A stretch of DNA of 64,000 nt from positions 47,274 to 111,273 of the forward strand of contig JAGWAU010000035.1 of the NCBI GenBank assembly GCA_021296255.1, written 5' to 3'. This stretch comes from Alphaproteobacteria bacterium (GTDB lineage Bacteria; Pseudomonadota; Alphaproteobacteria; UBA2966). This document shows positions 41 through 6,413 of the stretch, piece after piece. The translations under genes were made by a program, and so were the position numbers. The notes beneath the pieces were generated by a model, which saw nothing but the letters and a program-made list of their open reading frames with translations, did no database searches and was not told where the DNA came from. Numbering within the stretch: the stretch's first letter is position 1; each line of letters begins with the position of its first letter.

Positions 41-1588
41 TCAGGCCAATCTCAGCAGAAACGTGTGAGCCCCGACGGTGGTCGAAACTTCGAGGTCGCC
101 GTCGACCTCGCGCCAGTCGTCGCTCCTTTCCCCATCGACGATGACCGTGCACGACTTGGGATTCACGTTGGTCACGCGGAAGGCCGTGGGCTCGCCGCGC
201 GCCGCCGGGACCCCCGGATCGGTCGCCACGACCAGCATGCGCCGGCTCCCGTCGTAGACCGCTTGGCTCAGGCAAACCTTGGGGAAGTCGACGCCGTAGA
301 CCGTCGGATCGACGAACTTCCTCAAGTTGGGCTCGTTGAAGAGCCGCCACCAGGCGCCTTCACTGATCGATTCCGCCATGGCGGCCGAAGCGTTGAACTG
401 GCCGCGCGGATGCGGCTCGTTCAACCCGAACCTCCAGGTGAATTCCAGCGTCTCGGGGTCGAGGGTGGGTTCGTGGTGCTCCTCGGCGCAGACCTTGAGC
501 TTGGCGTGGACCGCGTCGTCGCCGAATTCGCGGGCGAAGGCCAGGCCGTAAAGCGTAGCCCGCGGGTTGCCGGGCGACTCGTCGGCGGGCTCGAGCGATC
601 GCCAACCCAGGCATCCGACGGCCGAATCGAAGAACTGGCGCGCCACGTCGTGGCGTTGCGGGGTCAGCCCGAGGACCATGAGGAACTTGTCGTAGTTGCC
701 CCAGAAGAACGACCCGGTGCCGTCGGGCCGCATGCTGATCTTATGGTTGTAGTCGATTATCGGATCGTAATAGTTGGTGTACCAGTCACCGACCTTGCCG
801 TCTCGCATGGGCAGGTAGTGGTGCAGCGCGTATTCCCACCAGTTATCGAAGACCAGATGCAGGTCCGTGCGGTGATTGATGTCGTGGAGCCTCAGACCGA
901 GGCCCGCGGGAGCCAGTCATATGGGCCAGATCTTGGTGTTCTCGCAGTGACACCCTTCGGGCCGTGACGACCACTGTTTGGCGAGGTGCCCGGCAACGCC
1001 CGAATAGGTCCAGGTAAACGTGTTCTCGCCGTCTCGGATGGTCTCGAAGGGCTCGTTCCACTTGTCGTCGTTCGTGACGTACTTGTGCAGCCCGAGGACG
1101 ATGAGGAAGTTCCCCTTGAGCCAGAGCGCGCCGTCGGCCCCGATGGGGTCGATTTGACGGCCCCAGGGCTCGACCCCGTCGGCGGTCCAGCCGGGCGTGT
1201 CGTAACGGCCACGCAGGAACCGGGGAATCCAGGCCTCGTACCATTCCTCCGGATACTGGTCGCGGCGCGGGTCCTCGCCGATCTGCGTCAGCCAGTCCTC
1301 CGCAGCCCACCAGCCCGTATAGCGAAATGTGAGTTCGTCGAGGATGGTGCCGTAAACCTCGCGCCAAGCCGGCGTGGTATCGCACATGAGGCCCATGGCA
1401 TAGCTCGACTCGAACAGGTCGAAACGGTACCAGGAGCGCCGCGGCTCGCCGCTGATGTTGTCCCAGTGGGGATGGGGCCGGCCCTCCTTGTCCCAGTTGT
1501 CCGGGGTCGTCGCCTTGCGGTGGAGATAGCGAAGCCATCCTCGGCTGCGTTCGCTGAGTTCCGGGTAGCCTGCCACTGTCGACGGCAT
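41..1588 (-). CDS. Linalool dehydratase/isomerase-like enzyme with an in-frame UGA at the catalytic Cys (candidate selenoprotein)
   Basis: One continuous reading frame of 515 codons interrupted only by a TGA at 917-919 (codon 224); both halves are in the same frame and clearly one protein. It resembles the linalool dehydratase/isomerase (LinD) fold. LinD uses an Asp and a Tyr six residues apart and two Cys nine residues apart (D39/Y45, C171/C180 as I recall them). Here D57 and Y63 lie in FDLFESSY, C215 lies in CENTKIWPI, and the residue nine later is the UGA. The sequence after the UGA (LAPAGLGLRLHD, then H-x-TD) still follows LinD. ATG 1588 is preferred over the upstream ATG 1657 because family-like sequence starts there. 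Either UGA is read as Sec, or it is a one-base nonsense change or error from a Cys codon. Substrate is not known. The next gene diverges across a shared 185-bp promoter region. Confidence 0.75.
887..919 (-). promoter_or_regulatory. SECIS-like hairpin directly 3' of the in-frame UGA
   Basis: With U of the UGA (919) as 1, nucleotides 15-21 pair with 27-33 to give a 7-bp stem (one G-U) closed by the five-base loop GGUCU at 22-26. Bacterial SECIS elements lie just downstream of UGA within the coding region and present a GU-containing apical loop to SelB. In E. coli fdhF the GGUCU also falls at 22-26 by my count. The bulged U17 of fdhF has no obvious counterpart. The same bases encode conserved-looking residues, so chance pairing in GC-rich coding DNA is possible. 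Confidence 0.45.
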
Positions 1589-1652
1589 GACGCGCCCTTG
1601 CCCTCTAGTTGTCTTGGCCCGCAACAGAGAGTGTAACGGGCAATTCCCGGAT

Positions 1653-1715
1653 GACAATTGTCCCGTCCGGGAAGGATGCCCCTCCCGAAGACGGCACGAA
1701 AACTGGTACAGTTTT
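1653..1715. promoter_or_regulatory. Divergent promoter region with two dyads
   Basis: The region between the LinD-like gene and the GST gene holds a perfect 10-bp palindrome GACAATTGTC (1653-1662) and a 7-3-7 dyad AAAACTG-GTA-CAGTTTT (1699-1715). The second has the size and shape of a regulator operator, loosely like GntR/MocR-class sites, but no regulator gene is adjacent. Function is inferred only from symmetry and position. Confidence 0.4.
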
Positions 1716-1773
1716 TAAGCCCCCGGTAGAGTGGCCTTCCCGGTCGATCGTCATATTCGAGGAAATGATCCGC

Positions 1774-2406
1774 ATGAAGCTCCACGACTTCGATCCCGCT
1801 CCCAATGCCCAGCGTGTCCGCGTGTTCATGGCGGAGAAGGGACTCGAGATTCCGATCGTCGAGGTGAAAGTACGCGACGGCGTGATGTTCGAAGAACCCT
1901 ACCGCTCCATGAACCCCTTCGCGGTCGTTCCGTTCCTCGAGCTCGATGACGGGACGTGCATCGGTGAGTCGGTCTCCATCTGCCGCTACCTGGAAGATCT
2001 CCATCCGACGCCCTCCCTGATGGGACGCGACCCCAAGGAACGAGCACTCATCGACATGTGGAACCGTCGGATCGAACTGGACGGTTACTTGCCCACCATG
2101 CATGCGCTGCGCAACGCGGACCCGGCATTTCAGGGGCGGGTCGTCCCCGGCACGCGGAACGATCTCGTCCAATTCCCTGAAATCGTCGAGCGGGGCAAGG
2201 ACATGCTGCTGATCCTGCTCGAACGGCTCGAGGCGCAGCTCGCGGACAATCGCTTCATCGCCGGCGAAGCCTTCTCCATCGCCGATATCACCGGCTATTT
2301 CTTGATCCGATTGGGAGTCCGGCTCGATTTCCCAATTCCCGATGACCGGCCCAACGTGGCGCGCTGGTACGAAGACGTGGCCGCCCGTCCGAGCACCCGG
2401 GCCTAG
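1774..2406 (+). CDS. Glutathione S-transferase family protein
   Basis: A 210-residue protein with an N-terminal thioredoxin-like domain (about 1-80; MNPFAVVPFLELDDG and GESVSICRYLED are the usual glutathione-site segments) and an all-alpha C-terminal domain with the FIAGEAFSIADI helix typical of GSTs. ATG 1774 was chosen because GAGGAA at 1759-1764 is well spaced from it; ATG 1765 is too close. Soluble, likely glutathione conjugation or isomerisation. It is transcribed away from the LinD-like gene and is followed after about 100 bp by an extradiol dioxygenase. Substrate cannot be read from sequence. Confidence 0.85.
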   Translation: MKLHDFDPAPNAQRVRVFMAEKGLEIPIVEVKVRDGVMFEEPYRSMNPFAVVPFLELDDGTCIGESVSICRYLEDLHPTPSLMGRDPKERALIDMWNRRIELDGYLPTMHALRNADPAFQGRVVPGTRNDLVQFPEIVERGKDMLLILLERLEAQLADNRFIAGEAFSIADITGYFLIRLGVRLDFPIPDDRPNVARWYEDVAARPSTRA

Positions 2407-2512: not shown

Positions 2513-3460
2513 ATGTCCGTCTCCCTCGTCTGCATGTCGCACAGCCCTCTCATGATGGGCGCGTTGTCTCCTTCCGATCGGTCCCAGGAGGAGACGTTCT
2601 TCGACGTTGTCGGCGAAGCCGGAAAGTGGATCGAATCTAAGGACCCGGACCTGATCGTGGTTTTCGGACCGGATCATTTCGGTGGGCTTTTCTACGATCT
2701 GATGCCGGGCTTCGTGATCGCCGCCGCAGCCCATGGCAGCCACGATTGGGGACTGGAACCGGGTCCCCTGGACGTTCCCGAGGACATCGCCATGGCGTGC
2801 TTCCGTCACCTCACGGCCGAGGGATTCGATCCGGCGTTTTCCTACGACATGCGGGTCGACCACGGCACCACCATCCCGCTGATCAAACTCACCGGAGCGC
2901 TGGCCGCCTACCCGGTTCTGCCCATCGTCATCAATTGCGCGGCCATCACCCGCCCCGGGTTCCGGCGCGTACGGGAGTTGGGCGCCGCGGCCGGTCGATT
3001 TTTGGCCGGCCTCGATAAGCGCACCGTCATCATCGGCTCCGGGGGACTTTCGCACGATCCGCCCACGCCGGTGATCGATCTCAACGACGAGAGAATCGTA
3101 GACAGAGTGGTCAAGCGGAACGTGCCTACACCCGAGGAGTTCAAGCGCCGCGAAGCCCGGGTGGTCGAGGCGGCAAAGGCGATGTGCCGGGGCGAAGGTC
3201 CGCTCCTGCCGCCGAGCGAGGAGTTCGACCGGCGATTCCTGGAGCGTTTGATGATGGGCGACCTTGAAGCGTTCGACGACTGGTCCGATGAGATGATGGA
3301 CCGGGAAGCAGGGTTCGGCGGCCATGAAGTGCGCTGCTGGGTGGCCGCCGCCGCGGCGGTGGCGGCGGCGTCGGACGGCGAGCCGGATTTCACCCTCGAC
3401 TATTACGACATCATCCCCGAGTGGATCACCGGCATGGCCGTGGTGCGTGGCACCGCGTAG
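2513..3460 (+). CDS. Class III extradiol ring-cleavage dioxygenase, MhpB-like
   Basis: A 315-residue protein, the length expected for 3-carboxyethylcatechol 2,3-dioxygenase (MhpB, LigB superfamily). N-terminal CMSHSPLM and FGPDHFGG supply the expected His ligands for the active-site Fe(II), and the internal GSGGLSHDPP block is characteristic of MhpB. The predicted reaction is meta-cleavage of a catechol. No other mhp genes are adjacent, so the exact catechol is unknown. An enoyl-CoA hydratase and a maleylacetoacetate-isomerase-like GST nearby fit aromatic degradation. Confidence 0.82.
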   Translation: MSVSLVCMSHSPLMMGALSPSDRSQEETFFDVVGEAGKWIESKDPDLIVVFGPDHFGGLFYDLMPGFVIAAAAHGSHDWGLEPGPLDVPEDIAMACFRHLTAEGFDPAFSYDMRVDHGTTIPLIKLTGALAAYPVLPIVINCAAITRPGFRRVRELGAAAGRFLAGLDKRTVIIGSGGLSHDPPTPVIDLNDERIVDRVVKRNVPTPEEFKRREARVVEAAKAMCRGEGPLLPPSEEFDRRFLERLMMGDLEAFDDWSDEMMDREAGFGGHEVRCWVAAAAAVAAASDGEPDFTLDYYDIIPEWITGMAVVRGTA

Positions 3461-4921: not shown

Positions 4922-4957
4922 CCATGGCGGTTTCAAGCCGGGTTTGAACTGCCATGG
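4922..4957. repeat. Dispersed palindromic repeat, copy 1 (imperfect)
   Basis: Outer arms CCATGGC and GCCATGG enclose related inner arms (GGTTTCAAG and GTTTGAACT) around a CCGG centre. It is a diverged copy of the perfect palindrome at 38994-39028. It begins 20 bp after the MFS stop and overlaps the last codons and stop of the GST gene on the other strand, so the repeat supplies the C-terminal residues of that protein. Confidence 0.7.
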
Positions 4958-5610
4958 AGCCCCTTGAAATCCGACGGCGCGTCGGACTGGTTTTGCGCCA
5001 GGGCATCGCGGAACGCCGGCATGCCCTCGCACAATCCGTAGATTCGCCGCACCGTCGGGTAGAGCGTCAAATCACAGTCATAGCGGCGCGAAACCTGTAT
5101 CAGCGAGGCCAGGCATATGTCGGCGAACGTCAGGGATTCTCCATGGCAATAAGTTCCCGTGGCCGGATCACCGACGAGCGACGCCTCCAGCATTTCCAGC
5201 CCCTGGCGAACCCAGTCATGGCACCAGCGACGAACGCCAGCCTCGTCCTGGTTCAGGTTGTCGGCAAGGCGGTTGCGGATGCGGCTGGGCAGCAATGCGA
5301 AGATGTCCCCGACCAAGGCGAGCGACAGGCTGCGCACGCGTGCCCGTTCGGCCGGATCCTCGGGCAGCAGAGGGGGTTCGGGAAACTTCTCCTCCAGGTA
5401 CTCGAGGATGGCCAGGGACTGCGTGACGACCACGTCCCCATCCTTCAGCGCCGGAATCTTTCCCTGCGGGTTGAGGGCCCGGTAGCCGGGGGACGCGGTG
5501 TCGCCCTTCAGAACATCGACGATTTCGTCCTCGTAGGCGACGCCCTTGAGATTGAGCGCGACCCGCGCCCGGTAGACATTGGAGGACAGGTAATAGCCGT
5601 AAAGTTTCAT
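4933..5610 (-). CDS. Maleylacetoacetate isomerase-like glutathione S-transferase (zeta class)
   Basis: About 225 residues. The N-terminus MKLYGYYLSSNVYRARVALN matches the zeta-class pattern with the SS-x-x-x-R active site, followed by LNPQGKIPAL and TQSLAILEYLEE for glutathione binding. The helical C-terminal domain includes GESLTFADICLAS. Zeta GSTs isomerise maleylacetoacetate or maleylpyruvate in tyrosine and aromatic catabolism. ATG 5610 is preferred; a GTG at 5622 would overlap the upstream hydratase stop. The enoyl-CoA hydratase lies just upstream on the same strand, suggesting an operon. The extreme C-terminus comes from the palindromic repeat. Confidence 0.8.
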   Translation of the reverse strand: MKLYGYYLSSNVYRARVALNLKGVAYEDEIVDVLKGDTASPGYRALNPQGKIPALKDGDVVVTQSLAILEYLEEKFPEPPLLPEDPAERARVRSLSLALVGDIFALLPSRIRNRLADNLNQDEAGVRRWCHDWVRQGLEMLEASLVGDPATGTYCHGESLTFADICLASLIQVSRRYDCDLTLYPTVRRIYGLCEGMPAFRDALAQNQSDAPSDFKGLHGSSNPA

Positions 5611-5618
5611 GGGACGGA

Positions 5619-6413
5619 TCACCCCTTGTTCAGGAACGCGCTCATCCGCTCATCCCGCTCCGGCAAATTGAAGACCACCGCCGCCAGATCCTGTTGGAGC
5701 GCGAAGGCGGTTTCATTGTCGGGGGGGCCTTCACATCGAACGAGCGCTTCCTTGGCCATCGACAGCACCGTCGGGGGTTTGTCGAGCAACCGCGCGACGA
5801 TGTCCGTCACGGCCCTGTCGAGGCCGCCCTCGGGCGCGACCCGGGTCACCAGACCGAGGTCCTTGGCTTCTTCGGCGTCGATCCGCTCGGCGAGAAGAAC
5901 CATCTCGAATGCCCGGGCTCGATTGCCCAGGTGACGGGGCAGCAGCGCGGCGCCCCCGACGATGCCGACGTCGATCTCAGGCTGAGCGAATCGCGCGTGG
6001 GGCGCGGCGATCACGATGTCACCCGCCATGACGAGCGCGCAGCCGGCACCGAAGCTCAGGCCGTTGGCGGCAATCACCACAACTTGGGGCAGCGCGCGCA
6101 GACGGCGGTAGATGTCCACCGTGCACCCGGCGAATTTACGAAAGCCCGAGACGGTCAGCTTGGAGACATCGTCGATATCGGCCCCCGCGCAGAAGGCTTT
6201 CTCGCCGGCGCCGGTGAGGACGAGAACCGACACGCCGCGATCCTCCGCCAATCCATCGGCAACGTGAAACAGTTCTTCGAACATGCGCCAACCCAGCGCG
6301 TTCAGCTTGTCGGGTCGATTCAGCATCACTCGAACGACGCGATCCTCGTGCGTCCGCCCGACCGAGATTTGCTCGTAGTCCACGATGAGTTCCCCCTCTC
6401 GATCTCCAGTCAC
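5619..6413 (-). CDS. Enoyl-CoA hydratase/isomerase family protein
   Basis: A 264-residue crotonase-fold protein. AFCAGADIDD and ANGLSFGAGCALVMAGD form the oxyanion-hole and CoA-binding segments, and ARFAQPEIDVGI carries the second catalytic-type Glu. The first catalytic Glu of classical hydratases (GGGCE) is Ala here (GAGCA), so it may be an isomerase, hydrolase or other crotonase rather than a standard hydratase. It is followed closely by the MaiA-like GST. Confidence 0.82.
   Translation of the reverse strand: MTGDREGELIVDYEQISVGRTHEDRVVRVMLNRPDKLNALGWRMFEELFHVADGLAEDRGVSVLVLTGAGEKAFCAGADIDDVSKLTVSGFRKFAGCTVDIYRRLRALPQVVVIAANGLSFGAGCALVMAGDIVIAAPHARFAQPEIDVGIVGGAALLPRHLGNRARAFEMVLLAERIDAEEAKDLGLVTRVAPEGGLDRAVTDIVARLLDKPPTVLSMAKEALVRCEGPPDNETAFALQQDLAAVVFNLPERDERMSAFLNKG

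Follow-up and report, generated by a model that had tools for sequence, protein, structure and literature searches.

A predicted selenocysteine at a catalytic cysteine position in a LinD-like protein family of uncultured Alphaproteobacteria

Many structures of the linalool dehydratase/isomerase LinD (Ldi) have been solved, including those of the C171A, C171S and C180A mutants. Ldi requires both of its active-site cysteines (170 and 179 in the numbering of this source) and requires them reduced; their Ala and Ser variants are inactive, and the enzyme is oxygen-sensitive and DTT-dependent (PMC6600392). Its mechanism is debated, both acid-base and covalent routes having been proposed (PMC6013536), and linalool isomerase needs a reductant too (PMC4791888). 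Here we describe a LinD-like gene with an in-frame UGA at the position of the second active-site cysteine, found in a 64,000-nucleotide stretch of alphaproteobacterial DNA (the window; genome G000). The organism belongs to GTDB order UBA2966, which takes its name from the genome G002 used below and has been reported from marine water and sponges (PMC8879329, PMC9789639, PMC8941161).

The gene occupies a minus-strand frame of 515 codons, from 1588 to 41, whose sole internal stop is a TGA at 919-917 (codon 224). A preliminary description had proposed that family-like sequence continues on both sides of this TGA, and this was confirmed by a Pfam match of the read-through protein to PF18566 (Ldi, linalool dehydratase/isomerase), which scored 40.9 bits against a gathering score of 26.1 bits and spanned the UGA (residues 145-377); other members of the family scored 32-53 bits. 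NCBIfam contained no family matching the protein, and no signal peptide was evident in it. The features discussed below are as follows.

41-1588, minus strand: predicted LinD-like (PF18566) selenoprotein gene, group a of a genus-specific family (from its 515 codons, Ldi Pfam match and orthologues)
944-946, minus strand: codon of invariant Cys215, equivalent to LinD Cys171, in the HCENTK motif (from invariance and LinD alignment)
917-919, minus strand: in-frame UGA, codon 224, predicted selenocysteine (Sec), equivalent to LinD Cys180 (from 11 of 11 copies in the genus and LinD alignment)
887-905, minus strand: putative bacterial SECIS hairpin GGGCCUC-GGUCU-GAGGCUC, loop at 898-894 (from position, loop and conservation)
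41-43, minus strand: terminal UGA, an ordinary stop (from the frame end and TGA usage in the window)
1609-2406, plus strand: divergent glutathione S-transferase (GST) gene (from GST_N and GST_C Pfam matches)

Comparison with LinD depended on profiles and on structure. A PDB sequence search with the single protein gave no match; profiles built from its relatives gave LinD as the best match (E about 3e-9 and 7e-10), and their alignment placed LinD GIVCEPDNYFVQC (C171...C180) on GCHCENTKIWPIU (C215...U224). The nine-residue spacing between C215 and the UGA, which had been proposed to fit LinD C171/C180, therefore held, and these two columns were the only invariant Cys positions in the family alignment. 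For a further match proposed earlier, of D57/Y63 to LinD D39/Y45, D57 is invariant and residue 63 is Q, H, M or F in paralogues; the LinD sequence alignments stop short of its N-terminal half, where D39/Y45 lie. When an AlphaFold2 model of the read-through protein (pLDDT 78.9, pTM 0.85) was compared with the PDB by Foldseek, the top 27 hits were all LinD structures (E about 1e-9, TM 0.62-0.68 by target length); the likeness is remote, at about 15% in this comparison.

The TGA could in principle have arisen by faulty sequencing or by a recent nonsense mutation in a gene undergoing decay, leaving a 223-residue fragment as the product. When 96 related genomes were searched, each of the three genomes of the genus yielded homologues with a single in-frame TGA, whereas those from more distant genomes were stop-free. 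Codon reading placed the TGA at the identical column in 11 of 11 copies from three species, within the motif HCENTK(I/V)WPx-UGA. These copies comprise the group-a orthologues (87-90% identical; the window gene is 90% identical to that of G001 and 87% to that of G002) and paralogues of groups b, c and d (58-63% identical). One of the genomes, G001 (OY282368.1), is near-complete, with 3 contigs and 100% completeness, and G002 is the MAG UBA2966. A one-base Cys-to-stop change or error, raised earlier as the alternative, cannot account for 11 copies from three genomes that were assembled independently. Close relatives thus carry UGA, not Cys, at this column, and their downstream sequence shows no decay: dN/dS 3' of the UGA was 0.07-0.28 in eight orthologous or closest pairs, versus 0.03-0.19 on the 5' side, indicating that the downstream half is translated and functional. 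Some members of the family do show decay or misassembly, with two frameshifted copies near contig ends and small remnants elsewhere, yet the conserved copies, the purifying selection and the hairpin described below leave the error or pseudogene reading with almost no probability, and we rejected it.

The two frameshifted copies belong to the window genome (copy d, L066 12208-13606 at the end of G000:C115; copy c, L072 1-1497 at the start of G000:C47), and both keep the UGA and the hairpin; their frameshifts are probably misassembly of near-identical repeats and possibly decay. Short LinD-like remnants were also seen at G000:C94:14004-14135 (L032) and G000:C116:26201-26296 (L033), one of them with an in-frame TAG, which suggests turnover of the family.

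Outside the genus, all four homologues covering the site (three from Alphaproteobacteria and one from a Streptomyces plasmid) have Cys at the UGA column, encoded by TGT in L020 and TGC in L021; L038 and the Streptomyces protein P0002 likewise have Cys. With the UGA column masked, a tree placed the UGA copies in a single clade with support of 100/100, and one Cys/UGA change suffices to explain it. Considering this tree and the presence of Cys in LinD itself, Cys was probably the ancestral state, and Sec would have been gained once, before the paralogues split. All UGA forms found belong to one genus: in a sample of 385 Alphaproteobacteria and 398 Pseudomonadota genomes none was detected outside it, a search of genome contigs confirmed UGA forms only in the two other genomes of the genus, and none was found in viral contigs. 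The orders of the Cys-bearing genomes G041 and G021 were each represented by one genome among those searched, and searching them yielded nothing further.

A search of the window genome for sel genes recovered the whole Sec pathway. On contig C64, selA (574 bits) lies just upstream of selB (436 bits), which directly precedes tRNA-Sec (selC; 71.7 bits, with ARAGORN in agreement), and selD (309 bits) is located elsewhere, on C65. Besides G001 and G002, selA was found in the Cys-bearing G021 and G041 and in four further genomes from the family without a LinD-like gene, indicating that the pathway predates its LinD-like use and that the Cys form can coexist with it. No Sec-type formate dehydrogenase client was found in the window genome, whose alpha-subunit homologues show no internal stop. 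The selD reading frame (L046 1-2529, G000:C65) sits behind an apparent FAD/NAD-dependent oxidoreductase domain to which it is fused, and SelD has Cys (GGCGAK) at the usual Sec/Cys position, so it is not itself a selenoprotein in this genome.

Immediately 3' of the UGA, the RNA can form a putative SECIS with a 7-bp stem and a GGUCU loop, 18 nt separating the UGA from the loop, which begins at nt 19. The hairpin, previously described as lying at an fdhF-like offset, was located at 905-887 of the minus strand; it is intact in 11 of 11 UGA genes, and the stem is absent at this site in both Cys genes examined. All 70 cells of the stem alignment were paired, versus 14-77% in slid controls. Five stem pairs are invariant, one is U-A or U-G, and one is C-G in groups a and b versus G-C in groups c and d. 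In this compensatory swap, one side is silent (GGC/GGG, Gly) and the other changes the amino acid (AGG Arg to GGC Gly or AGC Ser); the covariation of the hairpin amounts to one pair and a single evolutionary event. The loop with a stem of 7 bp or more at the same offset arose in only 0.2-0.5% of synonymous randomisations. Total folding energy at the hairpin was not unusual relative to synonymous shuffles, and the argument for the hairpin is therefore based on where it lies, its loop, its conservation and its absence from the two Cys genes; codon conservation at codons -10 to -6 upstream of the UGA equals that within the hairpin. Rfam gave no match for the hairpin. A SECIS-like match in L069 at 11574 was judged to be due to chance.

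These data also bear on whether the UGA might be decoded without selenium, whether by general reassignment to Trp or Cys, by near-cognate read-through, or as Cys via the Sec machinery. Since outside homologues have Cys at the column, a Cys there would be functional. However, TGA ends more of the window's long ORFs than any other stop (23 of 39), an ordinary usage by which general reassignment was ruled out; the Sec machinery is complete, selD included, and accompanied by the fdhF-like hairpin; and UGA has been kept in every copy even though a one-base change would give Cys. We consider selenium-free decoding very improbable. The earlier proposal that Sec replaces a catalytic Cys is instead supported by the sel genes, the conserved UGA column, the purifying selection and the conserved hairpin, and, judged from sequence, insertion of Sec at UGA 224 is almost certain.

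We then considered the genomic surroundings of the family. In 3 of 3 species the group-a gene and the GST gene stand side by side in divergent orientation, the true start of the latter in the window probably being the ATG near 1774, and an extradiol (LigB) dioxygenase gene lies near the group-a gene both in G002 and in the genome of the window. Window positions 2513-3460 encode a LigB-type aromatic ring-opening dioxygenase and 4933-5622, judged by eye, a second GST-like protein, which suggests an aromatic or xenobiotic catabolic neighbourhood. Group b is accompanied by a conserved series of metallophosphoesterase, 4HBT thioesterase and SDR genes, with an amidohydrolase in two species; SDR genes also occur near copies c and d, and an amidohydrolase near the Cys form in G041. 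Taken together, the contexts of LinD-like genes look like those of catabolism of small organic molecules.

The divergent GST could be taken to indicate a selenoprotein of another kind, in which Sec is redox-active (as a Cys215-Sec224 selenenylsulfide) and the LinD-type reaction has been lost, for example a glutathione-linked enzyme working with this GST. Most known selenoproteins are redox enzymes (PMC13188914), the pairing holds in every species of the genus examined, and the two LinD cysteines must stay reduced (PMC6600392), all of which would fit. Against this, Sec and Cys occupy the LinD catalytic positions, a CxxU/UxxC motif is absent, and no GST lies beside the b, c and d paralogues, whose neighbours are SDR, amidohydrolase, thioesterase or hydroxylase genes. 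We regard such a redox role as unlikely. Because Sec224 aligns with a LinD active-site Cys, and the active-site Cys of LinD, an oxygen-sensitive enzyme, are essential and must be reduced, we infer that it would be catalytic, either acting as a proton donor or nucleophile or standing in for Cys with greater tolerance of oxidation.

In the mechanism that we propose, SelA and tRNA-Sec would make selenocysteyl-tRNA using selenophosphate from SelD, and SelB, bound to the hairpin just 3' of the UGA, would insert Sec at position 224. Cys215 and Sec224 would then occupy the sites of the LinD catalytic Cys171 and Cys180, Sec most likely serving as catalytic acid or nucleophile on an alcohol or alkene substrate in a catabolic pathway, and the low pKa and easy re-reduction of Sec may offset the oxygen sensitivity known for LinD. 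The account as a whole, a Sec224 selenoprotein related to LinD in which Sec is most likely the acid or nucleophile of a reaction that needs no cofactor, be it hydration, dehydration or allylic isomerisation, is very probably correct. We are evenly divided on the narrower version, in which Sec would be a non-redox acid-base or covalent catalyst of a cofactor-free hydratase/dehydratase-isomerase and the family would have expanded to several copies in each genome after Sec was gained.

The 2026 inventory of 119 prokaryotic selenoprotein families (PMC13188914) has no LinD-like entry, and a literature search limited to open-access journal papers found nothing containing both 'selenoprotein' and 'linalool dehydratase'. 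The LinD-like UGA proteins would thus be a new selenoprotein family, carried in several copies by uncultured marine-type Alphaproteobacteria, and would add a LinD-like fold and a hydro-lyase/isomerase class to a selenoproteome in which redox proteins make up most families. Standard gene callers, like the plain ORF lists for the window, split these genes at the UGA, so the enzyme is easily overlooked in this lineage. The predicted natural Sec/Cys swap falls at exactly one of the two LinD thiols, and since LinD structures and mutants exist and the debate sets a covalent thio-intermediate against acid-base catalysis, the role of this residue can be tested directly.

Among described systems, E. 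coli FdhF, whose sequence used for the comparison was found under fdhF in 5368 E. coli genomes, resembles the UGA gene in its decoding signal, a UGA followed by 18 nt and then a GGUCU loop on a stem, and would share with it the SelA/SelB/SelD/tRNA-Sec route; unlike the LinD-like protein, FdhF is a molybdopterin redox enzyme. The linalool isomerase Lis of Thauera linaloolentis (PMC4791888), compared by description only, is a remote LinD relative that acts on an allylic alcohol in its reductant-dependent reaction; it is membrane-anchored, with four predicted helices, and is not known to contain Sec. LinD/Ldi of Castellaniella defragrans (PF18566; PDB 5G1U, 5HLR and 5I3T) has the same alpha-barrel fold as the predicted model of the UGA protein, and both have two invariant thiol or selenol positions nine residues apart. 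LinD, however, has Cys180 where Sec is predicted here, and is 397 residues long, whereas the UGA protein has about 515 residues with a predicted C-terminal beta region; in addition, the capping disulfide of LinD (C48-C101, PMC6600392 numbering) has no conserved equivalent in the UGA family, as this family has no other invariant Cys.
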